A program made the translations under genes and the position numbers. The notes beneath the pieces are model-generated. The model made no database searches, was not told where the DNA came from, and saw only the letters and a program-made list of their open reading frames with translations. DNA of 64,000 nt from Halorubrum vacuolatum (GTDB lineage Archaea; Halobacteriota; Halobacteria; Halobacteriales; Haloferacaceae): the NCBI RefSeq assembly GCF_900188065.1, contig NZ_FZNQ01000016.1:1-64000 (forward strand), read 5' to 3'. Positions 1 through 18,171 of this stretch are shown here, one piece after another. Position 1 is the first letter of the stretch. Every line of letters starts with the position of its first letter.

Positions 1-148
1 GAAGCTAAACAACCCTCTCCCGGTCGAAAAACGCTGTTAGAGGAGGTGTGTAGTGACCTCACCGCCAATGCGGGGGCTTAAACGAATACGAATGGTGTAG
101 AGACCTATTAGCACAGCACTTATGGAATTTCGTTATATTCTCACTGAC

Positions 149-499
149 ATGGGAGATTCATCGGAAGAAGCAGATCCAATCAAAGAATCACCTCTTTGGG
201 AGTTTGTGAAAGAACAAGAAGAGGACATGCAGGTAGGTGGAGAGTCACTTGATTATCTAAAAGTTCAGTTAGAGGAGACTACGCGAATTGTTTGGCATAT
301 AGCTGCAGAAAATGCACGGGAGCGTAATGTAAAGACGATTGAAGAAGAAGATGTGAGAGAAGCGTTCAAAGAATTGGTCCACCCACATATGATGCTGGTT
401 GATGCTCGTGAGATGCTAAACAAATATCAGAATGAGTTTCAGTCTATGATTGATGAAGATCCGGTTTTACCGTCTGAAGGGGGTGAAAACGATGGCTGA
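149..499 (+). CDS. Histone-fold protein, first gene of a four-gene operon
   Basis: A protein of about 116 residues whose residues 15-76 resemble the archaeal histone fold: a short first helix (PLWEFVKEQ), a long central helix (LEETTRIVWHIAAENARERN), the loop motif KTI at 62-64 and a third helix EEEDVREAFKEL. This matches the HMf-type pattern LEE..R.I...A...AR...KTI..ED...A. An acidic tail of about 40 residues follows, which canonical archaeal histones lack. Histone-fold proteins bind DNA or pair with other histone-fold partners; here the acidic tail and operon context suggest a specialised role rather than bulk chromatin. The start at 149 (MGDSSEEAD) was preferred over an in-frame ATG at 122 because acidic, Ser-rich starts are typical of haloarchaea. 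It overlaps the next gene by 8 nt. Fold assignment is by pattern only. Confidence 0.7.
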   Translation: MGDSSEEADPIKESPLWEFVKEQEEDMQVGGESLDYLKVQLEETTRIVWHIAAENARERNVKTIEEEDVREAFKELVHPHMMLVDAREMLNKYQNEFQSMIDEDPVLPSEGGENDG

Positions 500-1175
500 C
501 AACCGCTATCTATTCAGAGATGAATATAAACGTGATGAAAAGATTGATCGGATCCGGGTCGGTAAATTCCGAACAGAGGAAGAGCCTCTTGTACAGGAGA
601 TTCTGGAAGAAGCAGATCTGGATATTAATTATCTCTTAGAGAATGAGAAGTGGGATTTCCTCGAAGAGATCTCGGACCGTGTAGAGCAGGATCGGTTCGA
701 TCAATTCATTGATTCAATGTTTGAAAAACACGGTGAGAAAGGCGACCAATTCAATATCCAGTTCTATGTGGTTGATGAACTTGAATATGATTTGTTAGTT
801 GATAAAGCAACCGAACGTGAAGGTGATGAATTGACGTACTTAGAAGGAGAGGACTTTCGACGGCCGACCACTCTTAGTAAGGTACGAACAGACGCTGGTG
901 AAGATATAGTCGATCTGCAATTTGAGGTGGTAGACCATCCGGAAGATATCGAAGCAGAGGGGCTACAAAGGGCAATGACAGAAGACGGTGACTTCATTGA
1001 TCTAAGTGAAACAGAATTAGAAGATGCTGAACGTCTGATACGCGAAAACCGTTATACAATAGAGGTTCGTGCCTATGTTGATGACGGGTTCGTTGGCATC
1101 TCTAATTCAGTAGGACGTGATTCAATTCAAAACGAAATCAAAGATGCAGTCAAGCGTTGGGGGATCAATACATGA
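492..1175 (+). CDS. Hypothetical protein, histone-fold operon gene 2
   Basis: About 227 residues, strongly acidic, no recognised domain. The ATG at 492 was chosen over an upstream in-frame start because it gives an 8-nt overlap (ATGGCTGA) with the histone-fold gene and a typical start (MADNRYLF). The first third looks helical and charged; the remainder alternates short predicted strands and helices (for example FNIQFYVVDELEYDLLVDKA and YTIEVRAYVDDGFVGI). There are no membrane segments, Cys clusters or obvious catalytic motifs. The stop overlaps the next start as ATGA, so it is probably co-translated with both neighbours and works with them. Function unknown. Confidence 0.75.
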   Translation: MADNRYLFRDEYKRDEKIDRIRVGKFRTEEEPLVQEILEEADLDINYLLENEKWDFLEEISDRVEQDRFDQFIDSMFEKHGEKGDQFNIQFYVVDELEYDLLVDKATEREGDELTYLEGEDFRRPTTLSKVRTDAGEDIVDLQFEVVDHPEDIEAEGLQRAMTEDGDFIDLSETELEDAERLIRENRYTIEVRAYVDDGFVGISNSVGRDSIQNEIKDAVKRWGINT

Positions 1176-1966
1176 GTCACGATAAATTGGAGCTACGCGA
1201 AACCGATCTCCTTATGCTTCAAAATTTGATGCGAGGAGATAACTCAGGTCTAGATTACAGCGACTTCCGTGATTCGAGTGTGAATACAGCCAGATATCGC
1301 GGAGATCGGTCAGAGTCGTTGTATGGTTCCCCGGTATTAGAACCAGCGCATGAAGAAGGCAGAATCACACAGGTTCGGTTCTATGTTGATTATGATGATG
1401 GCACGGTTGAAAAACCCGTCCAAGTCCAGGCATATAATGACGGCCACATCAACACGACAAAACCCACTCAAGAAGACTTTCTGAATGAGTTAGAAGGACA
1501 TCTCGCTGCAATCCGAGACCACAGAGAATTTCTTGATCCACTTGATGACCTGATTGACGAATACGTTTACCAAGCTTTCGGCGGTTCTTTCGCTTCCCCT
1601 GAAGAAGTCCACAGAGAGAGGGTCAATCGAGCATTCAGTAGCTTGGTAAACAATTACTTTGATGAGGATGACTATCAGGATGAAGAACGACACGTATTTG
1701 AGTCGATAATTGCAAATACCGGAATCGAATTGTCGAAACTTGATCTGGAAGATGATTCCTATCCAAATGTTGATGAAGACGAGACACTCCCATATCAGGA
1801 TGGCAGGATTGAAGAGTTCTTTGAGAAGTACGCAGTAACTGCCGAAGAGACTACCCGCCCAGATTTTGATAAGCTCTCAAGTCACCTTCATGCGCTATTG
1901 CATCAACGTTGGGATACGCCACTTGAAATAATAGAAGAAGCCATTGATGATTATGCTCTCAGATGA
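1172..1966 (+). CDS. Hypothetical protein, histone-fold operon gene 3
   Basis: About 264 residues, acidic and soluble, family not recognised. The start at 1172 lies in an ATGA overlap with the previous stop and is preferred over an ORF start 15 nt upstream. Residues 65-95 (QVRFYVDYDDGTVEKPVQVQ) look like a beta hairpin; the rest is mainly helical, with an Asp/Glu-rich stretch around 175-210. No nucleotide-binding or metal-binding motif is visible. It overlaps the start of the downstream membrane-protein gene by 14 nt. Being in the middle of a tightly coupled operon, it is most likely part of a complex or signalling chain with the histone-fold and membrane proteins (inference). Confidence 0.75.
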   Translation: MSHDKLELRETDLLMLQNLMRGDNSGLDYSDFRDSSVNTARYRGDRSESLYGSPVLEPAHEEGRITQVRFYVDYDDGTVEKPVQVQAYNDGHINTTKPTQEDFLNELEGHLAAIRDHREFLDPLDDLIDEYVYQAFGGSFASPEEVHRERVNRAFSSLVNNYFDEDDYQDEERHVFESIIANTGIELSKLDLEDDSYPNVDEDETLPYQDGRIEEFFEKYAVTAEETTRPDFDKLSSHLHALLHQRWDTPLEIIEEAIDDYALR

Positions 1967-3119
1967 GGATACCCAGTTTCTTAATCGTGTACTGACGGAG
2001 ATCCCAGCGCATGGAAACGTCACTGATTACCGATTTTTTGAGCCTGAAATGGATGAATTTCTGCATCAAGCAGGCGTAGACGAGACTACACTAAGTTCAA
2101 ACTGGCGTTCCTTCTTCAAATCAGTGGACCAAGAGGTCTGTACCTCATGTCGAGCAAGTGTTTCTGAATGTACTTGCTCGGACCAAAATCACGTCTCCAC
2201 AGTCTACTTTATTGATCCAGATTATGTTTTCAGAGAGTGGGCAGCACGGATCGAGGATCATAACTGGTTTACTGAAATTACCACCGAATCAATTGATAAT
2301 CTAAATAAGCGACTGATTGCAGAGTCAGATAGCGTAGGAACGATTATATTCCGAATATTCTTTGACGGTCAAAGGTTCGAGAATCATTCACCAGATCCAC
2401 TGAAGCCAAGATTGTCTGTTGGTTTTGTGAATGGTAAACATGCCGATGAAGAAGAGTACGCGTATTTTTGGACTGAGTTCATAGATGTAGGATTCTGGAA
2501 GGGACTACACAACCAACTAGTACAACTACAGAACCCACTTTCACTTCGCCTTTGTCGGAAGGAAACAGCAGCTGTTGAAATTAATGCGGAGAGTATTGAA
2601 GATGAGTTGAAAAACTACTTCCAAGGTGTTGGATGGGACGTTTCCGAACAACCCCAGCTAGTTTGCCACGAAGTTGATGATTATATTGATATTGAAGATG
2701 TGAATTTTGTTGCCTCTGAAAATGAAAATTCACGAGCGCTGCTTTGTGAATGTGACTCTGATCCGGAACACTGGCACTTCCATTATTTTACTGATGGTAA
2801 GTTATCAGATGTCACAAGCTCTGAAGTCATAGAAACAAGCCGAGATCGCATGCGAGGAAACGTCAATGATTACAACAACCTTTCCGAATCTCGGCAAGAT
2901 TTGGGTCCATTCGTCCGGATCTTTGCTGTTATTATTGGTGTAATAAATATAGGGCCGCTCGCACAGTTCTTTGAAATTCTTGAGGTGGATTTAACGACTC
3001 AGCAGACTGTCGGCATTCTAATTGGGATTATAGTTGTGAATCTCATACTCGTGCTGGCGCTCGTCTATTTAGCTCTCTGGCCAGTATATCGTCACAGAAC
3101 TTTCGATTGGTCAATCTAA
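1953..3119 (+). CDS. Cys-cluster protein with two C-terminal membrane helices, operon gene 4
   Basis: About 388 residues. Most of the protein is soluble. A four-Cys cluster at 63-75 (CTSC then CTC) could bind zinc. The last 70 residues hold two hydrophobic helices, about 320-342 and 352-377, followed by a short basic tail (YRHRTFDWSI), so the large N-terminal part and the tail would face the same side. Possible starts are ATG at 1947 and 1953; 1953 (MLSDEDTQFL) is used. A large cytoplasmic sensor region ending in two membrane helices is a common layout for membrane-acting effectors of antiviral systems, and this is the last gene of an operon beside a restriction system. No family recognised; the effector role is inference. 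Confidence 0.75.
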   Translation: MLSDEDTQFLNRVLTEIPAHGNVTDYRFFEPEMDEFLHQAGVDETTLSSNWRSFFKSVDQEVCTSCRASVSECTCSDQNHVSTVYFIDPDYVFREWAARIEDHNWFTEITTESIDNLNKRLIAESDSVGTIIFRIFFDGQRFENHSPDPLKPRLSVGFVNGKHADEEEYAYFWTEFIDVGFWKGLHNQLVQLQNPLSLRLCRKETAAVEINAESIEDELKNYFQGVGWDVSEQPQLVCHEVDDYIDIEDVNFVASENENSRALLCECDSDPEHWHFHYFTDGKLSDVTSSEVIETSRDRMRGNVNDYNNLSESRQDLGPFVRIFAVIIGVINIGPLAQFFEILEVDLTTQQTVGILIGIIVVNLILVLALVYLALWPVYRHRTFDWSI

Positions 3120-3307
3120 TCTACAGTCTGAACCTGGCTTGGAGAATTATCAACTATCGCCAGACCATAGATCAGTTCAACAGTCTGCCATTTCTTTTTT
3201 ATAATAATGGGTGACAGGATTACTGGGAATTCTGTCGTATTATAAAAGAGACGGAATATATCGTGCCGAGCCTTTTGTGCGATAACGCGGCCAACTACGG
3301 TCCCAGA

Positions 3308-3655
3308 ATGAAGGTAGTACAAGAGATTCTCGCCCAATTTGGCATCCACTCAATCGAGCAGATGGACGTCAACGAGAGCTATACCGTCGAAGTCCCTGGG
3401 TACAACGACTTGACGATCGAGAAAGTCGGCCAACAGCAAATTAGCGTGGCTCATCACTACGTCCAGCGATGTGATCTGATGTGTGATCCCGAGATCGTCT
3501 TCCGTGTCGAAAACGGTGAGTGGGTCCCGATCGAATACACGCAGCATCCACGAGTGTACCAGCGTGACGAAGACGGTCTTCAGCTGAACGGCTTCATCGA
3601 GCGCTGGGACCGAAATCTCCGGCAACAGGGATTCGTAGAGGCCGCGGAAAAGTAA
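3308..3655 (+). CDS. DUF6908-like haloarchaeal protein
   Basis: About 115 residues, starting at the ATG at 3308 (MKVVQEILAQFGI) rather than an in-frame start 45 nt upstream. The pattern of a beta-rich body with HHYVQRCDLMCDPEIVF, a WVPIEYTQ strand and HPRVYQRDEDGL near the C terminus matches my recollection of the haloarchaeal DUF6908 family, small proteins common on plasmids and islands; molecular function is unknown. Monocistronic, with about 190 nt of AT-rich sequence before it. Family name is from memory. Confidence 0.65.
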   Translation: MKVVQEILAQFGIHSIEQMDVNESYTVEVPGYNDLTIEKVGQQQISVAHHYVQRCDLMCDPEIVFRVENGEWVPIEYTQHPRVYQRDEDGLQLNGFIERWDRNLRQQGFVEAAEK

Positions 3656-3757
3656 CTCAGCGAAGCTGCAGTCCTGATCGCTTCGTTCTTGGGATTGCCC
3701 ACAGGATGTGCCAAGGCTTCTACGTTCCTGAATTAGGACGTAGCGAGCAATAGTCTT

Positions 3758-4297
3758 TCAAAACAAGTCCTCGATACGTGTCTGGAGATCTGAAAACGCC
3801 TGTTCTGCGTACTCGATGTCGGTTGCGCCGGTTATGACTACCTGTCCTGAACCAAATACCAAGAGAACACAATCGTGCTCCGATGGGCGATACACTAATC
3901 CGGGGAACTGTTCCGGCTCGTATTCCGTGACCTCTAGTCCAAGTCCGATGGCCAGCGCCGAGAGATTCAGTTGTTCCCCCACGTCTGCGGTACACACGTA
4001 GTTCTGGATATCGAACCACTGGTCATCAGGCTCAGAAAGGATCCCACACCTGGTTAGGGTACTGAGGAACTCTTCACGAGTGGTTTCCGCTTCTCCTTCT
4101 GAATCTGCGCCGGTGATGATGTATTTCCCTGTTCGATACAGCGTAATCAGCGGAGTATCTTCGTCAAGATGAACGTACGCGCCAGGATACTTTTCAGGGT
4201 CGTACTCGGCAATATCACCTAAGTCTCGGGACACAGCGGATAGATCTAACTCCAGACCGAGAGATCCAGATGAGACGACGTTGACGATCTCGACCAT
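3758..4297 (-). CDS. tbp: TATA-box binding protein (TBP) paralogue
   Basis: TBP binds the archaeal TATA box and recruits TFB and RNA polymerase. The 179-residue product has the expected two-fold repeat: repeat 1 includes IVNVVSSGSLGLELDLSAV and YPGAYVHLDEDTPLITLYRTGKYIITGA; repeat 2 includes NYVCTADVGEQLNLSALAIG and FPGLVYRPSEHDCVLLVF followed by GSGQVVITGA. The start at 4297 aligns with the usual TBP N terminus, so the 30 upstream in-frame residues are excluded. Repeat 1 is clearly more divergent than repeat 2, which suggests an accessory TBP of the kind that haloarchaeal plasmids and islands carry alongside the main one. It is divergent from the hsdM operon across about 130 nt. Confidence 0.93.
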   Translation of the reverse strand: MVEIVNVVSSGSLGLELDLSAVSRDLGDIAEYDPEKYPGAYVHLDEDTPLITLYRTGKYIITGADSEGEAETTREEFLSTLTRCGILSEPDDQWFDIQNYVCTADVGEQLNLSALAIGLGLEVTEYEPEQFPGLVYRPSEHDCVLLVFGSGQVVITGATDIEYAEQAFSDLQTRIEDLF

Positions 4298-4386
4298 CGA
4301 ACCTGTCGTATAGGTGTCTTCGGGGATACGAGTTATAATCTTCCGATGTAGACCAACCGAGAAAGCGAACACACTCGACAATCGCA

Positions 4387-4397
4387 ATAGTTAAATT
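4387..4397 (+). promoter_or_regulatory. TATA-like element for the hsdMSR operon
   Basis: The AT-rich sequence TAGTTAAATTT lies about 30-40 nt before the GTG start of hsdM at 4427, close to the spacing for a leaderless archaeal transcript. Assigned by sequence and spacing only. Confidence 0.35.
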
Positions 4398-4426
4398 TGA
4401 AGTTGGTGGCAGATTCTTCTTTGAGT

Positions 4427-5992
4427 GTGAGTATTAACGGCGACAACGGGGAATTTGAGAAGAGCCTCTGGCAGTCTGCGGAAGGCCTTCGTGGGCCGGT
4501 TGAGTCTGCAGAATACAAGCACATCGTACTCGGCCTTCTTTTTCTCAAGTACATGTCCGACGCGTTCGAACAGCGTCGGAACGAACTACGAGAGCTGACG
4601 TACGACGAGGAGTCGATGTACTACTGTGGAGACGACGATGAGGAGCGGCAGTTCATTTTGGAGGACATTGACGCCTATCACGAGGAAAATGTCTTCTACA
4701 TCCCCGAAGAAGCTCGCTGGGAAGGCCTGATGGAGCGAGCTACGCATCCAGACATCGGTGCGCAAATCGATGATGCGATGCGGGCTATCGAGGACAAAAA
4801 TCCGGATCGGCTCGACGGAATGCTTCCGAAGCGGTATTCTCGAATCCCACAGGATACTCTTGAAGGCCTTCTTAACGAATTCTCTGAACTCGATCTTGGA
4901 AATGGTAAAGACACGCAGGATGAGGATGTCTTTGGTCGGGTCTATGAGTACTTCATTAAGGAATTCGCCCGCCAAGAAGGGCACCGTGGCGGTGAATTCT
5001 ACACACCAAAGCACGTAGTCGAGTTACTGGTAGAGATTCTGGAACCCTTTGAGGGGCGGATATTCGATCCATTCTGTGGATCTGGTGGGATGTTCGTGCA
5101 AAGCCACAAATTCCTTGAGGAGAAAGGTGGTGACGAGAGTCAGATTTCCATCTATGGGCAAGAGGTGAATCAGGCAACTTGGCGTATCTGTAAGATGAAT
5201 CTTTATTTACGGGGAATTGACGGCAACATTCAACTTGGAGATAGTATTAGAGACGATAAATTTTCAAACCTTCGTGCAGACACCATTATTACCAATCCGC
5301 CATTTAATATGAGCGAATGGGGGAAAGAGACGGTCTCTGAAGACGATCCTCGATTTAAATATGGTCTCCCTCCCAGTAGTAATGCCAATTTGGCATTCCT
5401 GCAGCATATGTTATACCATGTCTCAGAGGATGGTATGATCGGCACGGTCATGGCAAAGGGTTCACTCTCATCAAGTGGTAAAGAAGCCGAGATTCGAAAA
5501 CAAATCGTAGAGGATGACTTATTGGACGCTATTATTGTGCTTTCAGATCAACTGTTCTACACTACAGAAATTCCGGTGTCTATTTGGGTTCTGTCCAAAT
5601 CGAAAGGTGAAGGAACGGATGAGAGAGAAAGAAAGGGAGAAACACTATTTATTGATGCTCGTGACATATACGAGCAGAAAGACATAAAACAGAAAATTCT
5701 AAGGCCAAAACACATCGATAAGATTGCATCCACTGTTCGCTCATACCGCCAAGGCTATGAAAACTATGAGGATGAGCCCGGCTTCTGTAAAGTTGTAGAT
5801 ATTGATGAGATAGCTGAAAATGACTATATACTGATTCCTGGCAGGTATGTAGGTATTGAAGATATTGAAAAGAATGATGTTCCATTTGAACCGAAAATGG
5901 AGCAAGTCACATCTGAACTTCGCCAGAAATTCAGAGAAAGTGACGAACTGCAAAAAAAGATCGATGAGAAAATTCGGGAGGTCGGATTTTGA
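4427..5992 (+). CDS. hsdM: Type I restriction-modification methyltransferase subunit HsdM
   Basis: N6-adenine methyltransferase subunit (about 521 residues) of a type I R-M complex, acting with HsdS and HsdR. The N-terminal HsdM domain (LWQSAEGLRG, LGLLFLKYMSDAFEQRR) precedes the SAM-binding motif DPFCGSGGMF near residue 214 and the catalytic motif NPPF near 290. A GTG start at 4427 gives the usual HsdM N terminus; a TTG 30 nt upstream is less likely. The stop overlaps the hsdS start. The first about 750 nt are GC-rich like the region, but from about 5180 the gene becomes clearly AT-richer, continuing through hsdS and into hsdR, which points to a recombination junction within hsdM. Confidence 0.96.
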   Translation: MSINGDNGEFEKSLWQSAEGLRGPVESAEYKHIVLGLLFLKYMSDAFEQRRNELRELTYDEESMYYCGDDDEERQFILEDIDAYHEENVFYIPEEARWEGLMERATHPDIGAQIDDAMRAIEDKNPDRLDGMLPKRYSRIPQDTLEGLLNEFSELDLGNGKDTQDEDVFGRVYEYFIKEFARQEGHRGGEFYTPKHVVELLVEILEPFEGRIFDPFCGSGGMFVQSHKFLEEKGGDESQISIYGQEVNQATWRICKMNLYLRGIDGNIQLGDSIRDDKFSNLRADTIITNPPFNMSEWGKETVSEDDPRFKYGLPPSSNANLAFLQHMLYHVSEDGMIGTVMAKGSLSSSGKEAEIRKQIVEDDLLDAIIVLSDQLFYTTEIPVSIWVLSKSKGEGTDERERKGETLFIDARDIYEQKDIKQKILRPKHIDKIASTVRSYRQGYENYEDEPGFCKVVDIDEIAENDYILIPGRYVGIEDIEKNDVPFEPKMEQVTSELRQKFRESDELQKKIDEKIREVGF

Positions 5993-7275
5993 GCGACCAA
6001 GAAAAACTAACTGAATTCATGGATGGAAATATGGATAACTCCTTAGGAGAATGGGAGGAAAGAACCTTCTCTGATATCATTGAAATAAACAATTATCCAT
6101 CTCTGGAAAAGGGAGAAAAGCAAACGTATGTGGCAATGGAACAACTTCGACCCAGTACGCGAGAAATCCAAGGCACTGAGCAGAAGGAGTACAAGTATTC
6201 GGCACCCCGGTTCGAAAACGGTGATACACTTTTTCCGAAGATGTCGCGCTGCCTTGAAATTGGAAAGACGGCATATGTAAATAATTTAGAGGAAGATGAA
6301 GTCGCCTTCGGTTCTACCGAATTCATGGTTATGCGCCCGAAAGGCGAAGAAGTACTTCCTAAGTTTGTGTATTATACAGTCAGGCGAGAAGACATTAGGC
6401 AACATGCGCTGAGCTGGGCGACTGGAAGCACCGCTCGACGGCAGAGAATCTCCACAGATTTTTTTGATGAATTAACCATCAAAATCCCACCCATTGAGGA
6501 ACAAAAAGAAATAGTTGAGTTATTGGATGCAATCGACACTAAAATACAGAAGAATAAAGAAATAAATGAAAAATTGGAAAAAACTGCTCGTACACTTTAT
6601 AAAGGGTGGTTCAAAGAGTTCTCACCATATACATCATTCCAAGATACAGATCTTGGCGAGATCCCGAAAGGTTGGAGTGTGGGTACTTTAGGGGATATAA
6701 TGCAAAAGAAATCAAAGAAGATCGATCCTGAACAAATGTCTCCTTCTACTCCATATTTCAGTCTGAAGCATATGCCTGAACAGTCCCTTTCGCTGGAGCG
6801 GTGGGATAATACAGAAGATGTGTCAAGTAGAAAGTCAGAATTCAAAAAAGGGGATATTCTATTCGGTAAATTGAGACCGTATTTCTGTAAAGTTGGGATT
6901 GCGCCTGTTGATGGAGTTTGTTCTACAGACATATTCGTTATCACACCAAAAGAAGAGTCGGAGTGGCGAGAATTCTTGCTCTGTCAGCTGAGTGACCAGT
7001 CCTTTATTGATTACTGCGACAATGTATCTACAGGAACACGAATGCCGAGAGTAGGTTGGGAAGAGATGTGCGAATATGAAATACCTCTCCCAAAATCAGA
7101 CGTTGTCAAAGAGTTTAGTGAAATAACTCGTCCGTTTTTCCAGAAAATAGTGAATAATATTCACGAATCAATAAAGCTCCATGAGCTACGAGATACGATC
7201 CTCCCTAAGCTGTTGTCAGGAGAAATACGGTTCAGTGCCGACACTTGTAAGACAGTTCCAAGTGAAATCCAATAG
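5989..7275 (+). CDS. hsdS: Type I restriction-modification specificity subunit HsdS
   Basis: DNA-recognition subunit (up to 428 residues). It has the expected layout of two target-recognition domains, each followed by a helical spacer: TRD1 in about residues 15-170 ending in KIPPIEEQKEIVELLDAID with the coiled spacer NEKLEKTARTLYKGWF; TRD2 from DLGEIPKGWSVGTLGDIM to about 395, followed by HELRDTILPKLLSGEI. Possible starts are TTG at 5989, overlapping the hsdM stop, or ATG at 6019. The gene is markedly AT-rich compared with the flanks, consistent with exchange of the specificity module. The recognised sequence cannot be read from the protein. Confidence 0.94.
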   Translation: MSDQEKLTEFMDGNMDNSLGEWEERTFSDIIEINNYPSLEKGEKQTYVAMEQLRPSTREIQGTEQKEYKYSAPRFENGDTLFPKMSRCLEIGKTAYVNNLEEDEVAFGSTEFMVMRPKGEEVLPKFVYYTVRREDIRQHALSWATGSTARRQRISTDFFDELTIKIPPIEEQKEIVELLDAIDTKIQKNKEINEKLEKTARTLYKGWFKEFSPYTSFQDTDLGEIPKGWSVGTLGDIMQKKSKKIDPEQMSPSTPYFSLKHMPEQSLSLERWDNTEDVSSRKSEFKKGDILFGKLRPYFCKVGIAPVDGVCSTDIFVITPKEESEWREFLLCQLSDQSFIDYCDNVSTGTRMPRVGWEEMCEYEIPLPKSDVVKEFSEITRPFFQKIVNNIHESIKLHELRDTILPKLLSGEIRFSADTCKTVPSEIQ

Positions 7276-7278
7276 AGA

Positions 7279-10242
7279 ATGGGAATGGATGAAGAGGGAC
7301 TCTCTGAACGACCCGCGATAAAAACTTTCGAAGAACTTGGGTATGAGTATATCTCCGCAGAGAATCTTAAATCTGAACGAGCTACAATTTCCCAAGTTAT
7401 ACTATATGAACGATTGAAAGAAAGTCTTCATCGGATTAATCCAAATATCCCTGAAGAGGGCCTTCAGGAAGCGATCCGTGCGCTCACCAGTACACAGTCA
7501 CCGAACCTTTTAGAAGATAACCAGGATTTCCACATCCAATTAATTGACGGCGTACAGGTCGAATATGAAAAAAGAGGTGAACAGATAGGGCGTTTTGTTA
7601 ATCCGATTGATTTTAGCAATCCAGAAAACAATGATTGGTTGGTAACGAATCAATTCTCGGTTCAAGTGGGTGAAAATCCTAGACGCCGTCCTGATCTGAT
7701 AGTATTCATTAATGGGTTGCCGATCGGTGTCCTTGAATTCAAAAGTCCAACAGATCCGAAAGCTACGTTGGAAAACGCATACAATCAGGTGAACAAGCGT
7801 TACCGGAACGATATACCCCCTTTGCTACGTTACAATGAAATAATTGGACTGATGGATCTGAATGAGGCCCGGATTGGCTGCCTTGATGCAGGGTGGCAGT
7901 GGTACCGCCCATGGCGATATATTGAGGGAGAAGGCGACGAACGCGATGACCTCCCTGAACAGGAGGTCCTCCTCCGCGGTGTGTTCGACAAAGAGCGTCT
8001 GCTGGACCTCATTGAGAACTTCATCGTCTTCAGCAAGAACGATGGGCAACTGGTGAAGATGATGGCTGGGTACCACCAGTTCTACGGCGTTCGTAAGGCC
8101 GTGGAAAGTGCAAAGGAGACGATGGGGAGTGATCTCGGACGGATCGGCGTTTATTGGCACACCCAGGGGTCCGGGAAGTCGCTCTCGATGGTCTACTTCG
8201 TCCGCAAGATCCGTCGGAGCAGCGACTTCGGAAATCCGACGTTCGTTATCGTCACCGACCGCAACGAACTGGACGAACAGATCACACACACGTTCAGCGA
8301 CGCTGGATTCAACGTACAGTGGGCGGACAGCATCACGGACCTCCGCGACGAACTCGATCGTGCGACTGGCGGCATCATCTTCACGACCATTCAAAAGTTC
8401 CAGACGGTAGGTGACGAACTCGACCATCCAGTCATCAACGAGCGGGAGGACGTCATCGTCATCGCTGACGAGGCGCACCGTTCCCAGACCGAGGATCTGG
8501 GGATGAATCTTCGAACCGCACTCCCGAACGCCTCGTTCCTCGGATTCACTGCAACACCGATCCACGAGGGCGACAAGGCAACGCGGCAGACGTTCGGAGA
8601 GTACGTGAGCACGTACACGATCGACCGGTCCGAAAAGGACGGCTCGACGGTCCCGATCTACTACGAATCCCGGTTCGTAAAGCTCCAACTCAACAAAGGC
8701 AAGATCAGCGATGCAGTTGAAGAACTGCTCGACCAAGGAACGGAGGACCTCGAAGGCGAACTCGTTCAGAAGTGGACCAACCTCCGCCGTATCATCGAAA
8801 ACGCGGATGACCGGTTAGAGAAGATCTCGGCCGACATTGTCGATCACTTCAACGACCGTGAGATCGAAGGTAAGGCGATGGCCGTTGCCATCAGCCGGAA
8901 GGCAGCGGTCAGATACAAGGAACTCATCGAACAGCAACCCGACGCCCCCGAGGTTGACGTCGTAATCTCGGATCCTGACGAGTACATCGACGACCCCGTC
9001 AGTGAAGACAAACTCAAGCGTCGATTCAAGGATCCCGACGATCCGTTGAAGATCATCGTAGTCTGCGACAAATGGACGACCGGATTCGACTGTCCGCCGC
9101 TGCACACGTTATACATCGACCGACCGATGAAGAACCACAACCTCCTCCAGACCATCGGTCGAGTCAACCGCGTCTACAAAGACAAGCCAGGAGGACTCGT
9201 CGTAGACTACATCGGGATTGCTGAAGACCTCCGCAAGGCGCTGGACAAGTACACGTCGGACATCCAGGACATGGCGATGGTTGACGTCGAAACAGCCGTC
9301 GAGGTGATGTGGAAGAAGTACCACGAGGTGGCTAGTTTCTTCAACAGGGTAGACTACAAGAACTGGCAAGAGCTGGATGACCTGGAGCTTTCCCGACTCA
9401 TCCATCGAGCCGAAAGCGAGGTGATCGCAACTGAAGAGAAGAAAGAGGAGTTCATGCAGGCTGTCACGGAACTGCGGAAAGCATTCGCGCTTGTGACGCC
9501 TCACGATGAAGCGAGTGAGATCCGCTCGGACCTGCTGTTCTTCGAAGCGGTCCGTGACAGCCTTCGATCTCTAGAGACAGACTCTACCACGAAAGATGAG
9601 GACGTCGAATCGGCGATGAAAGAGCTCATCGCCGAAGGAATCACCGCCGATGACGTCGTGACCGTTGCTGGGTTCGATAAGTGGAAGTCCGAGGATCCGA
9701 TCGTCAGCGAGGAGTTCCTTTCTGATGTCGAACGAGTCGAAGAGCCGGAACTCCAGGTGGAGATGCTTGAGTCGCTTCTTCGTAGTGAGATTTCGACCCG
9801 GAAACAACAGAACCTCGCCAAGTACGAATCTTTTGAAGAGGAGTTAGAGGAGACCCTCAACAAGTACAATAACCAGTTCCTGACTACAGAGGAAGTGATC
9901 GAGGAGCTGAAAGCATACGCGAATGAACTCCAGCAGGAAGATAGACGAAAGGAACGGCTGGGACTGACTGCCGAAGAACTCGCCTTCTACGATGCGGTTG
10001 CGACGAATACTGAGGAAGAGATTTCCGAAGAGCAACTCCAAGAAATAGCACAGGAATTGTGCGAGATGTTGAAAGAGAACGTCAATATCGACTGGACGAA
10101 TCGAAAAGCAATGCGTTCCAAACTCAAGGTCCGGGTCAAGGGTCTTCTCCGAAAAAATGGTCTCTCTCACGGAGAATACGAACCATTAATCGATCCGATC
10201 GTGCACCAGGCAGAAGCACTATACGGCGATGTTGGCACATAG
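7279..10242 (+). CDS. hsdR: Type I restriction endonuclease and translocase subunit HsdR
   Basis: Motor-nuclease subunit, 987 residues. The N-terminal nuclease domain carries PDLIVFINGLPIGVLEFKS (PD..ExK) near residues 138-155. The superfamily 2 motor has Walker A HTQGSGKS near 295, DEAHRSQ near 396, GFTATPI, and motif VI QTIGRVNR near 623. The C-terminal part is helical and charged and would contact the methylase. It starts 4 nt after the hsdS stop and is intact, so the R-M system looks functional. Base composition changes at about 7860 (residue 195): the nuclease end is AT-rich like hsdS, the motor is GC-rich like the island. Confidence 0.96.
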   Translation: MGMDEEGLSERPAIKTFEELGYEYISAENLKSERATISQVILYERLKESLHRINPNIPEEGLQEAIRALTSTQSPNLLEDNQDFHIQLIDGVQVEYEKRGEQIGRFVNPIDFSNPENNDWLVTNQFSVQVGENPRRRPDLIVFINGLPIGVLEFKSPTDPKATLENAYNQVNKRYRNDIPPLLRYNEIIGLMDLNEARIGCLDAGWQWYRPWRYIEGEGDERDDLPEQEVLLRGVFDKERLLDLIENFIVFSKNDGQLVKMMAGYHQFYGVRKAVESAKETMGSDLGRIGVYWHTQGSGKSLSMVYFVRKIRRSSDFGNPTFVIVTDRNELDEQITHTFSDAGFNVQWADSITDLRDELDRATGGIIFTTIQKFQTVGDELDHPVINEREDVIVIADEAHRSQTEDLGMNLRTALPNASFLGFTATPIHEGDKATRQTFGEYVSTYTIDRSEKDGSTVPIYYESRFVKLQLNKGKISDAVEELLDQGTEDLEGELVQKWTNLRRIIENADDRLEKISADIVDHFNDREIEGKAMAVAISRKAAVRYKELIEQQPDAPEVDVVISDPDEYIDDPVSEDKLKRRFKDPDDPLKIIVVCDKWTTGFDCPPLHTLYIDRPMKNHNLLQTIGRVNRVYKDKPGGLVVDYIGIAEDLRKALDKYTSDIQDMAMVDVETAVEVMWKKYHEVASFFNRVDYKNWQELDDLELSRLIHRAESEVIATEEKKEEFMQAVTELRKAFALVTPHDEASEIRSDLLFFEAVRDSLRSLETDSTTKDEDVESAMKELIAEGITADDVVTVAGFDKWKSEDPIVSEEFLSDVERVEEPELQVEMLESLLRSEISTRKQQNLAKYESFEEELEETLNKYNNQFLTTEEVIEELKAYANELQQEDRRKERLGLTAEELAFYDAVATNTEEEISEEQLQEIAQELCEMLKENVNIDWTNRKAMRSKLKVRVKGLLRKNGLSHGEYEPLIDPIVHQAEALYGDVGT

Positions 10243-10310
10243 AGGTTCCAGGTGAATAGTATGAAACTCTGTTTGTTAGTTTGAAACGTATGAATCGCTT
10301 GACGGATGGT

Positions 10311-10517
10311 CTAGTCTTCGCAAACGACTTCACGCAGTTCTTCGAGTAGATCTTCTCGATTCTCGGCTAGAATCTCCACGTCTTCGTCTACATTTTCTAT
10401 CTTTGTTCGAATCCGACTTACCACCCGATATCGATAGTTATCCGAGACATCTGCATCACCTCGCAGAATTTCGCGCTCCCGCTCTGTGAGGAGGCCCCGA
10501 TACTGATCATCAACCAT
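10311..10517 (-). CDS. Small haloarchaeal protein, function unknown
   Basis: A 68-residue acidic helical protein, start at ATG 10517 (MVDDQYRGLLTEREREILRG). The pattern LTEREREIL then YRYRVVSRIRTKIENVDED and a C-terminal LLEELREVV resembles a widespread haloarchaeal family of small proteins often found singly in accessory regions; I know no function. It is divergent from the gene starting at 10727. The 210-nt intergenic region contains a TATATG box near 10611 flanked by two AGTAACCT copies, which may control one or both genes. Confidence 0.7.
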   Translation of the reverse strand: MVDDQYRGLLTEREREILRGDADVSDNYRYRVVSRIRTKIENVDEDVEILAENREDLLEELREVVCED

Positions 10518-10726
10518 ATCCCCGATTGAGCACGACTCACCAAAGAAGTTCTTACTACCGACAGTCACAAAGGTACTGTAAACAGTCACATTACCAATTA
10601 CAGTAACCTTTATATGACCACATGTAGTAACCTATGGCGTGAAGTCCGGTCTAGCGGCCATAGGTGATGAAATCGCCCGGATGCCAGCACATCCGGACCG
10701 GGCTCTCCATGAGGATTCGAGAACCC

Positions 10727-11284
10727 ATGTACGATTCGAACACGTCGAACGAAGAAACCATCGAAGAATCGATCGGGAATGACAAACACCAACTCCACTG
10801 CATCGGGTTCGGGGCTGACACTGCTATTTGTCAGGAATGCAGTGCTAAACTCCGAAAGGGTGAGTCGGTAACGGTGTACGCTGTCCGACCAGCTTCTGAG
10901 CCGGGCTTCGAGGTTGGATTCGTCTTGTGTGAAGAACACGAAAATGAGTTTTCTGTGGTATGGTCGCGTGGGGTACGCGAGCTGATTGTTCGCGGGCGTG
11001 TTGGGAGAGTGCTAGATGCGGGGAAGAAGGCATCGTGGAAGGTGTTGTTGGATCCTGAGATTGCGTTGGTGAGCCCGTCAGAGGCGATGGAGGCATACTC
11101 TGTAGAGGAGTTGCAGGAAATTCGTGGACCATCGACGGCGGAAATTGAGGCTGCCGTTGCCGGTAAGGAAGATGGGAGTGATGTCAACGAGGCAGTAACC
11201 GAAATAAATCAGCTTCAGGAGCCTGCGGATGACATTCGGCCCGCAGCAGAAGCGTTCTCCGAGGAAGATCAGAGGGAAAGATGA
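10727..11284 (+). CDS. Hypothetical protein with Cys/His zinc-binding pattern
   Basis: About 185 residues from ATG 10727 (an ATG at 10709 is also possible). The N-terminal half has CQECSAKLRKGESVTVYAV and, about 30 residues on, LCEEHENEF: a CxxC then CxxH pattern like a small zinc-stabilised domain. A mixed alpha/beta middle (LIVRGRVGRVLDAGKK, WKVLLDPEIALVSPSEAM) precedes an acidic, probably disordered tail. It lies 84 nt upstream of an HNH nuclease gene on the same strand, so the two may be expressed together. I recognise no characterised family. Confidence 0.65.
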   Translation: MYDSNTSNEETIEESIGNDKHQLHCIGFGADTAICQECSAKLRKGESVTVYAVRPASEPGFEVGFVLCEEHENEFSVVWSRGVRELIVRGRVGRVLDAGKKASWKVLLDPEIALVSPSEAMEAYSVEELQEIRGPSTAEIEAAVAGKEDGSDVNEAVTEINQLQEPADDIRPAAEAFSEEDQRER

Positions 11285-11368
11285 GCGGTAACCGTGTCAG
11301 CCGATTAAGAAACCAGCTCGGACGGCGTACTGGCGAGGAGCAACTTTGCAAGCAACCTCTCTGAAATC

Positions 11369-12430
11369 ATGTCACAGACTGAGCCACGAGATCGAAGCGA
11401 CAGTGGAGATTCAGGTGAACAAGAAGCAGCTGGCGACGCGGACGAAGAGGCAGACGTCCGTGATCCACATGAGTGTCACGAAACGGTAGATTCGGAGACG
11501 CGAGCGGAGGCGCTGGAGAGAGACGGACATCGGTGCCAAGTGTGTGGGAGATGTGGCCCGGAGCGTGGAGGATTGGCAACGCTGCATATCCATCATATTG
11601 AGCGTGATCCAGATGGAATGGATGAGGATGATCCGAGGAATCTAACAACGTTGTGCAGGTCGTGTCACAGTTGGATTCACCAGCAAGCGTCGCCGGACGA
11701 GTCGCCAGTCTCACTGTCAGAAGATGACTTGACGGTGTTGCTAGCGCAGGATATCGAAATGTTGCGATTCCTGGCGGAGGATGGGCCGGCGAGAACAGGG
11801 GATATCGCGGCCGGATTGACGGCGGACTTGTCGGTTTCAGCTGTTCGAGAACGCCTGTGGGTATTGATGGGGCTAGATAATATTGTCGAGTCGCGTGACC
11901 GGCAGATCGTCGATAAAGATATTGAAACTGGTGAGTGGGGATTAACCGGACAGATTGAGACGTCGGCGCGTGGACACATCCCAGATGATCCACAGCTGTT
12001 GCTGCAACGCATGGAAGATGAACAGGTCAGACAAGCGTTAGAGCGTGGATGCGACCGACACTCAATCATGGACGTGTTCGGTGTGTCTCGTCGAACGACG
12101 TTCCACAAAGAGAAGCGTGCGTGTGCGTACGGGTTTCCCTTAGAAGCGTTCAGCAGAGGTGGACCACAAAGAGGAGGCGACGATCATGATCGTAAGTCGC
12201 CTTCAGATAGGGCGGATGATACGGCAGAAGACGAGCAGCAGCAATTGGACGCGGTCGTTGACAGCACTAATAAAGCCCGCAAGCAGGCCGAAACTGTAGG
12301 TGTGTCTGGTGCTGGGGACGTTCCCAACGAGGTAAGCACAACGACACAGTCGGATCGTAACGCTGTGGTGGTCCGAAATCAGCTAGAGACAGCGATCGAA
12401 GCATTAGAAGAGGTTCAAGAAGCCCTCTGA
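11369..12430 (+). CDS. HNH endonuclease with C-terminal helix-turn-helix
   Basis: 353 residues. After an acidic 40-residue leader, residues 45-108 form a Cys-containing HNH domain: RDGHRCQVCGRCG, then LHIHHIERD (catalytic HH) and LTTLCRSCHSWIH. A winged-helix-like segment follows (MLRFLAEDGPARTGDIAAGL, then SVSAVRERLWVL), and near residue 235 a helix-turn-helix (RHSIMDVFGVSRRTTFHKEK). The C-terminal third is acidic and low-complexity. HNH domains cleave DNA with a metal; fused DNA-binding modules suggest site-directed cleavage. It could be a restriction-type enzyme or a selfish nuclease; no methylase is adjacent. Upstream is a zinc-pattern protein that may be a partner. Confidence 0.8.
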   Translation: MSQTEPRDRSDSGDSGEQEAAGDADEEADVRDPHECHETVDSETRAEALERDGHRCQVCGRCGPERGGLATLHIHHIERDPDGMDEDDPRNLTTLCRSCHSWIHQQASPDESPVSLSEDDLTVLLAQDIEMLRFLAEDGPARTGDIAAGLTADLSVSAVRERLWVLMGLDNIVESRDRQIVDKDIETGEWGLTGQIETSARGHIPDDPQLLLQRMEDEQVRQALERGCDRHSIMDVFGVSRRTTFHKEKRACAYGFPLEAFSRGGPQRGGDDHDRKSPSDRADDTAEDEQQQLDAVVDSTNKARKQAETVGVSGAGDVPNEVSTTTQSDRNAVVVRNQLETAIEALEEVQEAL

Positions 12431-12548
12431 GCGTCCGCGGATCGCTTGGACAGGATTTTCTGAAATTCGTTTCGAAAAATGAACTCAAGCCGCTTGGTAG
12501 CGTCTTGAAAAAGGATACTTTGATTTCCCGCGTGAGAAACCATAACAT

Positions 12549-13898
12549 GTGGCAGAACGTATCGAATCTCGGCTGGCGGAGATACGACAACAGCTCGCCG
12601 TGTTACCGAAAGCGGAAGAACCCCCGCCCACGTCGCTGCAGGTTCTCGGACGGAGCACACAGGAACGAGACTGGCAGCAGTTTCTGGTGTATTTTTTGAC
12701 CCCACGCGAGGCACATGGACTCGATCACGCGGTGCTCGAACACGTATTGGCAGCGCTGGCTGATCGAGAAGGGTTGGAGTATTCGTTTTCGCGGTTCGAG
12801 ATTAATGACATCAAAATCGCACAGGAGGTTTCGACGTCAGAAGGCATTCCAGATGTCATGTTGTGGGTGCCTGAGGAGTGGTTCATGTGCTGGGAATTGA
12901 AGATAGAAGCATCGGAAGGGCAGGATCAGACAGTCAGGTACGTTAATGTAGACGCGTTCGATGGGATCGACCTCGATAAGTCAGAGATTCCCAGCGACGG
13001 TCATCACTACGTCTATTTAACACCAGACGAGGCGTCACCACCAGCTGCAGACGATTTTGTGCAAGTGTCGTGGGAGTGGATAGCATCGGAACTCCAGACG
13101 TTCCTCGCGGAAAGTTACGACGCATATCCAGCGCGGACGACAGCACAATTGCGTGATTTCATCGATACGATTCGGAGTGAACTCACCGTGACCGACTATC
13201 AGGAGAATCAACAAGAGATGGTTGAACTGTACGTCAAAAACTACGATATCATCGCGGATATAGAAGCCGCGTTTAACGATGCGTGGTCGGCGTTCGAAGA
13301 GACGTGGGGAACGCGATTGGCTCAGACGCTCGATGCGGCCGAACTGGTTGACGATCCAGATGTCCCTGATGAGTACGCAGCGGTCGAATTGGAGATGAAT
13401 GGCGATGAACGACGGCAGTGGACGTTCCGCCAGGGGAAGTCGGACTGGTCGTGGATGTTCCCACGGGAGTGGTGGTGGAAGCTGGACGAGGATCGTCCGG
13501 TATCGAATGCCATCAAACCGAACGCGAGAGTTGGATTCCTCCATCGCTTAGAAAGGAACCAAGAGGATGCGGTCCGCGATCATACACTTATCGTGTACGT
13601 TCGAAATGCTCCGTCTGGTCACGAAGACTTCTACAACGGGTTCGCGGACCGCTTCGCTGAGGCACGGAATGAAATCGAAGCGACGATTGCTGGAACGAAT
13701 TTCACAGTGACAGGAAACAAGTCCAATGTGCTCCGCGGGGAATATGGTATAAAGACTGACGGACACGGGGACTTCTTTGAGGCGTATCTGGCTGCGTTAG
13801 CGCGTGCGATTGACGAAGGTGTTGTCTCAAATCCGGAGTTGATTGGAACGATCGATCGACTCTACAAAACGACGATCGACGAAGACGTAGCAGTGTGA
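12549..13898 (+). CDS. PD-(D/E)XK nuclease family protein
   Basis: 449 residues, GTG start at 12549 (MAERIESRLAEIRQQL). The N-terminal half carries the nuclease signature: GIPDVMLWVPEEWFMCWELK around residues 97-117 gives the acidic PD and the ExK-type strand, followed by DQTVRYVNV. Such stand-alone PD-(D/E)XK proteins occur in defence islands and are predicted DNA nucleases. The C-terminal half (EMVELYVKNYDIIADIEAAF onward, ending in a Trp-rich region with PREWWWKL) may sense or bind a partner. It is the third nuclease-like gene in this cluster. A TTTGATTTCC sequence about 25 nt before the start is a weak promoter candidate. Substrate unknown. Confidence 0.78.
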   Translation: MAERIESRLAEIRQQLAVLPKAEEPPPTSLQVLGRSTQERDWQQFLVYFLTPREAHGLDHAVLEHVLAALADREGLEYSFSRFEINDIKIAQEVSTSEGIPDVMLWVPEEWFMCWELKIEASEGQDQTVRYVNVDAFDGIDLDKSEIPSDGHHYVYLTPDEASPPAADDFVQVSWEWIASELQTFLAESYDAYPARTTAQLRDFIDTIRSELTVTDYQENQQEMVELYVKNYDIIADIEAAFNDAWSAFEETWGTRLAQTLDAAELVDDPDVPDEYAAVELEMNGDERRQWTFRQGKSDWSWMFPREWWWKLDEDRPVSNAIKPNARVGFLHRLERNQEDAVRDHTLIVYVRNAPSGHEDFYNGFADRFAEARNEIEATIAGTNFTVTGNKSNVLRGEYGIKTDGHGDFFEAYLAALARAIDEGVVSNPELIGTIDRLYKTTIDEDVAV

Positions 13899-14360
13899 GC
13901 AGTCAAGCTCGTTGAGACGGTATGAGTCTTAGTAGACATGCGTAACAAGAGATCGGGGATCTCGTTCAACAGCCCTGGTAAGATATTTCCAGACCGGATC
14001 TCGATTTTCGATGGATCGTTGCAACGTCGGCAGGCATACTTCATAGAATCCGGCTGCATCAAGGTTTAGAGAGCATGTAGGTAGTTTATCTGGCGCAATA
14101 GATTCAAATCAGGGATACGGGTATTGCAACGGTTTATGCTGAATCCCCGGACAGCGGAAGGAAAGAGAATCGATCATCTGGGGCTGGGATGTGGGAACGT
14201 CAACTGGGAATGTGTCACATTTGGCGATATGGTCGTGTTGTCAGTCTGATACCCATGCTGTGAATCTGATTTCACCAGATACAAGGATTCTATCAAGGGA
14301 ATTTGCCAGATAAGGCCCTAACCATTTTAAATATCCATTTCATATGCCGCTCTGCGCTAT
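13899..14360. other. Intergenic region without a convincing gene
   Basis: About 460 nt between the PD-(D/E)XK gene and the integrase. The minus-strand frame near 14062-13862 begins with a CxxC-containing peptide (MKYACRRCND) but then runs through the 3' end of the nuclease gene with low-quality sequence, so I do not call it. The last 40 nt hold the integrase promoter. Confidence 0.5.
14325..14334 (+). promoter_or_regulatory. TATA-like box for integrase
   Basis: TTTTAAATAT centred about 31 nt before the integrase ATG at 14361, consistent with a leaderless transcript. Confidence 0.45.
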
Positions 14361-15737
14361 ATGACAGAAGCTGAATCACCAGCGGCCATAACGATGACGT
14401 TGAGGGATATGCTCGGCGATGAGGCGTCAGTCGTTCAGCAAGAATACGATGAGCTGTATGAGTGGATGTTGAGTAAAGGGAAGAACCCACGTCGAAGGAA
14501 GGGTATCAAGCGGTCAACGGCAGACAATTACATGCCTCGCCTTGATCAGCTCCATCGACTTGTCATCCAGCATTTCGAACCTGACGATCCGACTCGCATC
14601 GATACTGAGCATGCGGATGAGGTATTACGCCTGATCGACCGCGGAGAGATAACCCAACAGCATGGCTCGAACAAGGGTGAAGAGTACAGCGAATCATCCA
14701 AACGAAAGTTCGCCAATACACTGGAGATCTACTTCAGATGGCACTATTACGAGAAAGAGACGATAGACTACGAGTGGGAACCGAAGATCAGCTTCACAGA
14801 CGGAAACAGCACTTCGGCGGATCGTTTCACCTACCAAGAACTCGGCCAGTTGTTCGACGAAGCCAAATCGTACGGCTCACTCCCCTCGTATTATAATACG
14901 TCCGAAGAGGAGCGTGAGACGATCAACGGATTGGTTGCTCAACGCTTGGGCAAAGCAAAAGAGGAAGTGGTGCGCGAGGACTGGTTGCACGCAGATTGGA
15001 GCCAGAAAGTCTACGCCATGGTCGTGGTCGGATACGACGCCGGGCTGGCCCCTATCGAAATTGCTAATGCTGAGACTTCCTGGTACAACCCGAAGTCCAA
15101 GGTCCTACGCATTCCATCCGAATACGCCTGCAAAGAGCGCAAAAAGGAGGAGGTCGCCCTGTCCGACCCCTCAGTTGAAGCGCTGAGCACGTGGTTACAG
15201 GAGCGCCGTCATCTGAGCAAATATGATGGAAGCAACAAGATCTGGCTCAACCGGAACGGGAATCCCTACGAGTCCGGTAGTCTCTGCCGACTCATAAGAA
15301 AGCTCTGTAGACAGGCGGGGATTTCCGTCGAAGGTCGAAAAATCGTCTGGTACTCGCTCAGACAGACCATGGGCAGGAATGTCACTGACGAAGGCGAACT
15401 ATCGGAAGCAAACGACCAGCTGCGACACGATCGATTGGAGACAACCCAAGGGAATTATAACGAAACACCCGTCGAAAGACGTCAAGCTCGACTCAATGAA
15501 ACCCATCGGAAGGCCGAGCGAGCGAAAGACGATCCAGGATATAACCCGTTCGAGGAAGAGGCCACCCCAATGAACGCTACGTCAACGGCCAACACTAAGG
15601 ACGGGACAGCTGGGAACGAAGGGGCTGTCACGCGAACGAACGGTGGCGGCATCCATGTAGATGCAGTGATTCCGGATACGACGGGAGCGAGAGTTGATAT
15701 TACAAGCCAGATTCTCAACGAGGAATCGAGCGACTGA
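14361..15737 (+). CDS. Tyrosine recombinase/integrase, probably catalytically altered
   Basis: 458 residues with a SAM-like core-binding domain (STADNYMPRLDQLHRLVIQ) and a C-terminal catalytic domain. Visible elements are WYSLRQTMG (box II Arg), QLRHDRLETTQGNYNE (His and the probable nucleophilic Tyr) and a basic beta hairpin KERKKEEVAL. However, the box I motif reads GLAPIEI, with Ala at residue 230, where the neighbouring integrase has GLRPIEV: the first catalytic Arg is missing. Tyrosine recombinases normally need this Arg, so the protein may be inactive in strand exchange or serve as a DNA-binding partner. A 50-residue Thr/Asn-rich tail extends beyond the catalytic domain. It converges on the other integrase with only 15 nt between stops. 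Confidence 0.88.
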   Translation: MTEAESPAAITMTLRDMLGDEASVVQQEYDELYEWMLSKGKNPRRRKGIKRSTADNYMPRLDQLHRLVIQHFEPDDPTRIDTEHADEVLRLIDRGEITQQHGSNKGEEYSESSKRKFANTLEIYFRWHYYEKETIDYEWEPKISFTDGNSTSADRFTYQELGQLFDEAKSYGSLPSYYNTSEEERETINGLVAQRLGKAKEEVVREDWLHADWSQKVYAMVVVGYDAGLAPIEIANAETSWYNPKSKVLRIPSEYACKERKKEEVALSDPSVEALSTWLQERRHLSKYDGSNKIWLNRNGNPYESGSLCRLIRKLCRQAGISVEGRKIVWYSLRQTMGRNVTDEGELSEANDQLRHDRLETTQGNYNETPVERRQARLNETHRKAERAKDDPGYNPFEEEATPMNATSTANTKDGTAGNEGAVTRTNGGGIHVDAVIPDTTGARVDITSQILNEESSD

Positions 15738-15752
15738 CCGAGCCAGGGACCG

Positions 15753-16880: not shown

Positions 16881-17044
16881 TGCCTGACCCTCCTGACGGG
16901 AACCCAGATCATTGCCCCTCGATTTTGCCGATCGCCAGACGGCGGCGGGTTTTCCCCCGCTAACCGTATTGCCCACTCGAAATCGGAAATCGCCGGACGG
17001 CGTCGGGGTCGATGCACTCTCCGAATGTAATTGCCCTCGATCAT
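16877..17044 (-). CDS. Possible small basic protein coupled to integrase
   Basis: A 55-residue frame (MIEGNYIRRVHRPRRRP at its start, VPVRRVRQ at its end), very basic, whose TGA overlaps the integrase ATG as ATGA. The coupling and basic composition would suit an excisionase-like factor. Against it, the sequence lies wholly inside the GGCAAT repeat array, so the frame may be open by chance. Confidence 0.3.
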   Translation of the reverse strand: MIEGNYIRRVHRPRRRPAISDFEWAIRLAGENPPPSGDRQNRGAMIWVPVRRVRQ

Positions 17045-17140
17045 GCGTTTACCTCGGGTTAGTGCATGACCGAAAACCGGCAGAAGGCGTCGGGGTGTGA
17101 ATGCTCCGGCGGGGATTTGAACCCCGGTCATTGCCTCGAG
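16879..17140 (-). repeat. Array of degenerate GGCAAT-containing repeats at the integrase/tRNA junction
   Basis: On the minus strand the core (T)CGAGnGGCAAT recurs; ATTGCC on the plus strand starts at 16879, 16911, 16968, 17030 and 17130. The last copy lies inside the tRNA-like sequence (TCGAGGCAATGACC). A second element, CGCCnGACGGCGnCGGG, recurs at 16933, 16991 and in weaker form near 17077. Spacings of 32-100 nt and partial matches suggest integrase/excisionase arm sites or remains of repeated insertion at one target. Seen by eye; functional reading is inference. Confidence 0.5.
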
Positions 17141-18005: not shown

Positions 18006-18101
18006 ATCGGATACAAGGTAGTTGAGAGTGCTAAACGTACTGTTGGCTGGATCCGAGACAGTGCCTCCAGACACGTGTTAAAGAGATTGTTTGGACTATA
18101 A

Positions 18102-18146: not shown

Positions 18147-18171
18147 CTCCGGTGAAAACGAAGAATAGCTC

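Follow-up and report, generated by a model that had tools for sequence, protein, structure and literature searches.

The AT-rich middle of a type I restriction-modification operon in Halorubrum vacuolatum is probably in the main a general property of such operons; the operon nonetheless looks like a mosaic, with joints that lie elsewhere than its steps in base composition. We give this reading a probability of about 0.6. The window, meaning the whole stretch of DNA analysed and not the operon alone, comprises positions 1-64,000 of contig NZ_FZNQ01000016.1, from an assembly of 3.48 Mb whose sampled GC is 0.609 (80,826 non-N bases). A sequence-only reading had proposed that one recombination event replaced the middle of the operon, between sharp junctions near 5180 and 7860, and thereby changed DNA specificity while the ends were kept.

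Three genes on the forward strand form the operon. The first, hsdM (4397..5992), encodes the methyltransferase, with both the N6-adenine methylase (PF02384, E 6.6e-109) and HsdM_N (PF12161, E 5.8e-23) domains present; it starts at TTG 4397 or, more likely, at GTG 4427, and homology to the nearest relative (L067) sets in at 4423. It is followed by hsdS (5989..7275), for a specificity subunit with two recognition domains (PF01420, E 2.7e-31, in two stretches), and by hsdR (7279..10242), for the restriction and translocation subunit (PF04313 at residues 4-201, PF18766 at 266-488 and PF11867 at 665-982). HsdR scores 560 bits against TIGR00348 (cut-off 284.55), and HsdM scores 219.6 against TIGR00497, under the cut-off of 242.75. 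The HsdR nuclease and SF2 motor domains are present, and PDLIVF...LEFKS, GSGKS and DEAH, which we take to be motifs of these domains, were all found. With three open frames, domains matched nearly in full and the motifs sought in place, hsdM-hsdS-hsdR is predicted to be an apparently intact type I operon of a haloarchaeal family.

We compared the operon with 20 orthologous HsdR-bearing loci, 19 of which have all three genes. They fall into clade A (L038-L041, L067-L069 and the window operon) and clade B (L043-L048 and L070-L075, 12 rows). The family is found in few genomes, with 19 of 391 class genomes, H. vacuolatum included, having an HsdR match whose E value is 1e-160 or lower. As a control set we used 20 further haloarchaeal type I operons, picked from the lower part of the HsdR match list, with HsdR only 28-36% identical to that of the window. 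In the operon tallies the best-scoring ORF was taken as hsdS, and one locus (L076, genome G347) was left out because the stretch fetched held no HsdR match. The remaining locus, L042 (10209-12572, genome G056), is a 5'-truncated HsdR that aligns to the window's from residue ~227-230 on (83%). We considered this truncation as a possible trace of a breakpoint, but it has neither hsdM nor hsdS alongside and looks like a remnant, so it was excluded from the operon counts.

The first joint lies within hsdM. We measured how often the window's HsdM carries a residue of its own where the rest of clade A is nearly unanimous; the rate is 0.02 up to residue 315 and 0.30 beyond it (support 308-324; position ~5339, interval 5318..5368; gain 36.4 lnL). 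The support interval starts five residues behind the NPPF motif (residues 300-303, codons at 5294..5305), and of the eight 10-codon blocks from 271 to 350, that of residues 301-310 is the closest to clade A in DNA (identity 0.88). In a tree of residues 10-315 the window operon groups with L040 and L068 (98/95), its end branch being 0.032 long. That branch reaches 0.80 in the tree of residues 320-531, where clade A forms one group in 9% of 200 bootstraps; an AU test on this part does not reject the window's membership of clade A (p-AU 0.32), and L071 and L045 have long branches as well (1.07 and 0.64). The divergent 3' part (5339..5992) has a best match of 60%, and nothing nearer turned up in 381 class genomes, plasmids and viral contigs, nor in 392 order genomes, a set that overlaps the class genomes. 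Three clade B rows out of 12 were examined too: L071 has an HsdM break of its own at residue 311 (gain 24.3), and L045 and L043 have no break of that size (gains 4.5 and 2.6). Beside the L071 hsdM (genome G417) lies an HsdS ORF of about half length, at 9409-10083.

The hsdM 3' part could have been imported from an unsampled sister lineage, or it could have diverged fast in place. On the second account, which combines a general composition trough with an hsdM that never recombined, the 3' third would have adapted to an HsdS that was newly acquired. It is indeed the HsdM 3' part that varies more throughout the family. After residue 320 the window protein retains 11 of 14 clade A/B-specific states and mismatches 9 of 63 universal columns, against 0 of 106 for residues 20-315 (consensus from seven rows of clade A and 10 out of 12 of clade B), a pattern that import and divergence in place would explain about equally well. 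Against it, the change is a step directly behind NPPF, a similar step occurs in L071, and the seven other clade A operons reach gains of 2.7-7.0 only, despite carrying other hsdS genes. Because the breakpoint is sharp and recurs in L071, import is favoured, and we consider divergence in place unlikely, if the least so of the competing accounts.

The second and third joints lie within hsdS. Residues 1-200 of HsdS match L040 or L038 at 64% of positions and L047 or L048 at 30%, and the relation is reversed at residues 241-395, where 67% match L047 or L048 and 36% match L040 or L038. The tail (residues 396-416) reverts to L040 or L038 (71%, against 33% for L047 or L048). This places crossovers at ~6661 and ~7168, so that the first half of the gene (5989..6661) resembles L040/L038 and the second recognition domain (about 6661..7168) resembles L047/L048; block identities likewise give the two recognition domains different nearest relatives. 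By these residue matches, HsdS is a chimera produced by recognition-domain exchange of the classical type. The change in specificity that the sequence-only reading had envisaged thus has a readable counterpart in the second recognition domain, as a separate exchange inside hsdS. Recombination around hsdS is supported, whereas base composition, the junctions at 5180 and 7860 and a single event are not what supports it. We also considered a phase-variable, inverting hsdS and rejected it: none of the 510 window frames that reach at least 60 codons is a second hsdS, and repeats in 4300-11000 are at most 30 nt long and imperfect.

By default blastn, L067 aligns at 3273-4298 (83%), 4423-5673 (76%) and 7477-10242 (76%), and within the gap a sensitive search adds just 5804-5992 (68%) and 6812-6893 (75%). 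The poorly alignable middle therefore comprises the last ~105 hsdM codons, hsdS and the first 66 hsdR codons, and is narrower than the proposed 5180-7860.

How do these joints relate to base composition? Along the operon, GC at third codon positions (GC3) is 0.644 in the hsdM 5' part, 0.400 in a trough made up of the hsdM 3' end, hsdS and the hsdR 5' end (third positions 4837-7848; hsdS itself 0.40) and 0.729 in the hsdR motor, with a last 3' stretch of hsdR at 0.552. An AT-rich middle between GC-richer flanks was thus confirmed, although the hsdM 5' part is only moderately GC-rich. The right-hand step is sharp, as had been claimed (best 7851, 2-lnL support 7767..7968, single-split gain 64.8 lnL), and falls close to where the HsdR nuclease domain ends. 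The left-hand change is gradual (best 4837, support 4738..5236, single-split gain 15.4 lnL), with 5180 barely inside its interval, and the HsdM breakpoint sits inside the AT-rich part, past the onset of the fall. Both gains exceed the biggest of 500 permutations (9.2). Plain-GC segmentation of 1-20000, however, recovers the right cut alone (7864, gain 68.9), with no separate left cut at its threshold. Nor does the operon stand out from uniform surroundings as an AT-rich island, since the four consecutive ORFs upstream of it, at 122-3119, match the trough in AT content (GC3 0.35-0.41). These ORFs have no Pfam match at 0.001, and the three scanned against NCBIfam gave one weak match, under its cut-off.

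The trough is not peculiar to this operon. The GC3 of hsdS lies below that of the hsdM 5' part, and also below that of the hsdR motor (codons 301-800), in 20/20 family operons, the window's included, and in 20/20 distant ones, making an hsdS-centred trough in 40/40 haloarchaeal operons and in 19/19 relatives apart from the window. It recurs in E. coli EcoKI (hsdS 0.32, hsdM 0.66, hsdR 0.64); the type I operons examined thus have the trough in common. Shallower dips than that of hsdS are seen at the hsdM 3' end and in the first hsdR codons: GC3 of the last 100 hsdM codons is below that of the first part in 20/20 family and 18/20 distant operons, and GC3 of the first 50 hsdR codons is below that of the motor in 16/20 and 20/20. 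Across 49 blocks, the GC3 profile of the window operon correlates with the mean profile of clade A at r 0.71, with that of clade B at r 0.66, and with those of single operons at r 0.31-0.79. Host GC is 0.61-0.70 for eight of the 19 relatives (seven hosts, one 20-kb chromosome sample each). The profile that was to refute a single replacement, one common to homologous operons of GC-rich hosts, is largely what these relatives show. In L069 (genome G341), the cleanest case, hsdM and hsdR are GC-rich along their entire length and hsdS alone is AT-rich (GC3 0.80, 0.42 and 0.73 in gene order). We dropped composition as a sign of foreign origin after the 40-operon comparison. Hitchhiking of the hsdR 5' end with hsdS as the cause of its low GC3 was rejected as well. 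Among the 20 distant operons the hsdR dip averages -0.109 where hsdS is adjacent (13 operons) and -0.085 where it is at least 288 bp away (six; p 0.70, with one further operon, whose gap is 103 bp, placed in neither group), and since the dip is similar in both arrangements, hitchhiking lacks support.

What is peculiar to the window operon is the rightward width of its trough. GC3 in hsdR codons 101-200 is 0.36/0.48 here, against 0.73 in the motor, and a dip in these codons is not general (12/20 family, 9/20 distant operons). We took the clade A relatives as the expected profile and fitted the GC3 of each operon, relative to it, with three segments. For the window operon this residual fit cuts at 7972 and 9547, with offsets of -0.37, +0.48 and -0.05 and a gain, as a measure without a null, of 28.6; a cut near 5180 is absent. 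L069 alone among the 20 operons exceeds this gain (33.5, likewise without a null), with cuts at 6007 and 7234, at the hsdS borders. Residual cuts in L039, at 5342 and 7207 (gain 21.6, again a measure without a null), lie near borders like the mosaic borders of the window operon. Comparison of profiles hence leaves the hsdS trough common to the relatives and the excess step near 7972 unshared.

This excess step, like the AT-rich hsdR codons 101-200, speaks for a single event that replaced ~4840-5180 to 7860 with AT-rich donor DNA, as originally proposed. A donor from clade A in an AT-rich genome would leave the HsdR protein without a break, and an AT-rich clade A operon does exist (L041). A residue-rate break at residue 112 of the clade B HsdR of L045 (gain 13.1) further indicates that a junction can occur in the nuclease part of hsdR. 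No such break is seen near residue 195 of the window's HsdR, and trees of residues 1-70, 71-195 and 196-980 each place the window on the clade A side of the A/B split (outgroup rows not counted). With HsdR on this side both left and right of 7860, no junction is detected there, and the composition step has no detected phylogenetic counterpart. Residues 1-70 evolve fast in several clade A rows, and their tree has low resolution and a long-branch warning (0.67 for the window's end branch, 0.04-0.82 for the other rows of clade A); with this long branch the right end of the exchange is not located. Neither at 4840-5180 nor at 7860 does the nearest relative change consistently, as judged by block-wise nucleotide identity to the seven clade A relatives. 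In most blocks, the same codon is used at about half or fewer of the shared residues, so silent sites are near saturation and the tests used would miss an exchange within clade A. The hsdR 5' part is, moreover, similarly AT-rich in L067 (GC3 0.36 and 0.43). The breaks in the window's proteins fall at HsdM residue 315 and twice within HsdS, not at the composition steps, which leaves replacement by a single event distinctly improbable.

Equally hard to credit is the notion that hsdS is AT-rich because it was recently imported from an AT-rich virus or plasmid pool and has yet to adapt to its host. It would account for the uniformly low hsdS GC3 of the family (0.29-0.47 in 20/20 operons) and for hsdS being the exchanged part; yet the same relation holds in AT-rich bacterial records (hsdS 0.23 against 0.43/0.41 in L037 and 0.21 against 0.32/0.26 in L108; more weakly, 0.11-0.16 against 0.17/0.19 in L106 and 0.27 against 0.33/0.36 in L107) as it does in EcoKI, such that hsdS seems to track its host at an offset, and plasmids gave no HsdS match that reached 60%.

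Our preferred reading, a mosaic operon with a generally AT-rich middle, is built on protein and DNA comparisons. These show an hsdM 5' part and an hsdR that group with clade A, an HsdM that changes abruptly after residue 315 and a chimeric HsdS. Homologous recombination in the conserved NPPF stretch may have brought in a foreign hsdM 3' end, either together with hsdS or separately. The part of HsdM predicted to contact HsdS would then travel with the imported segment. An additional exchange of a recognition domain would have altered the target. The step at 7860 would be a compositional feature, with AT-rich hsdR codons up to ~195 meeting an unusually GC-rich motor, or it may possibly stem from an exchange within clade A. 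Related operons, which had been expected to reveal breakpoints near 5180 and 7860, instead point to HsdM 5318-5368 and to none detected at 7860, with the proviso that exchange internal to clade A escapes detection.

Divergent from hsdM lies a gene for a TATA-box-binding protein (TBP) paralogue (3758..4297, reverse strand), which matches an NCBIfam TBP subfamily (E 4.6e-60, 202 bits over a cut-off of 181) and has both PF00352 repeats. Its ORF is open to 4387, with ATG 4297 as the likely start judging from start codons and the end of L067 homology. Next to it, a small forward-strand ORF (3263..3655) is common to L067 (88% identity over 119 aa). A TBP gene lies within 500 bp of the window operon and of 15 of 19 related operons (L038, L040, L041, L043-L045, L047, L067, L068 and L070-L075), as opposed to one of 20 distant type I operons. 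None occurs within 4.5 kb of L039, L046 or L069, and the contig of L048 stops 233 bp past its hsdM. The gene is found upstream in the same direction, upstream and divergent, downstream in the same direction or downstream and opposed, and its sequences are of two types, with 37-40% and 54-76% identity to the window's TBP. Chance adjacency would be expected in, generously, ~0.009 per operon at ~3.8 TBP genes per genome, taken as half of the 136 PF00352 matches in 18 operon-bearing genomes; the related operons share ancestry, so the 16 cases are not 16 independent events. The association suggests that TBP is a regulatory neighbour of the type I operon, and an unusual one. Among the titles and abstract openings of the matches listed in our literature search, neither TBP beside type I operons nor a general AT-richness of hsdS appears, which does not imply their absence from print.

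Further proteins of interest are encoded elsewhere in the window. A PDDEXK_4 nuclease-like protein (12549-13898) that matches the PADLOC candidate PDC-S26 is followed by a phage-integrase-family recombinase (14361-15737) and by an ORF in the opposite orientation (15753-16976) that looks like a second recombinase. UvrD-helicase/PDDEXK_1 proteins, presumably AddA-like, are encoded within 26265-33394, beside a second PDDEXK_1 protein that we take to be AddB-like, and within 56297-63681, next to a 1214-aa protein without a Pfam match. At 48037-54502, a HerA-like ATPase (DUF87) accompanies a 1102-aa SMC/Rad50-like AAA_23 protein with a partial match to the LmuB/PbeC/DndD defence models.

The joining of recognition domains is described as the classical route to new type I specificity in PMC3874165. 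The Salmonella SB/SP/SQ systems resemble the window operon in having three genes, a two-domain HsdS and a chimeric HsdS that joins the domains of relatives, but in the window operon the 3' third of hsdM has diverged as well, from a breakpoint behind NPPF onward. Inverting or duplicated hsdS loci of phase-variable systems are alike in diversifying by recombination of recognition domains; the window, by contrast, has one hsdS among frames of at least 60 codons and no repeats longer than 30 nt in 4300-11000. Haloarchaeal type I families A-G have a patchy distribution, as does the family of the window operon, and frequent transfer and substitution of their subunits is discussed in PMC6471742, in which a term search for TBP, TATA, transcription factor and base composition found none of these.

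Tentatively, and with more doubt than confidence, we propose that an hsdM-3'/hsdS cassette is the unit of exchange, entering behind NPPF, and that the operon's own TBP might supply or control transcription in each host. If this were true, TBP would be an archaeal counterpart of the controller proteins of bacterial restriction-modification systems. The junction behind the NPPF codons of hsdM is concrete and testable. The composition trough at hsdS is the rule in the operons examined, so it is not readable as the scar of a single recent replacement. The operon is a case of type I diversification of an ordinary kind and has an unusual, putatively regulatory neighbour.
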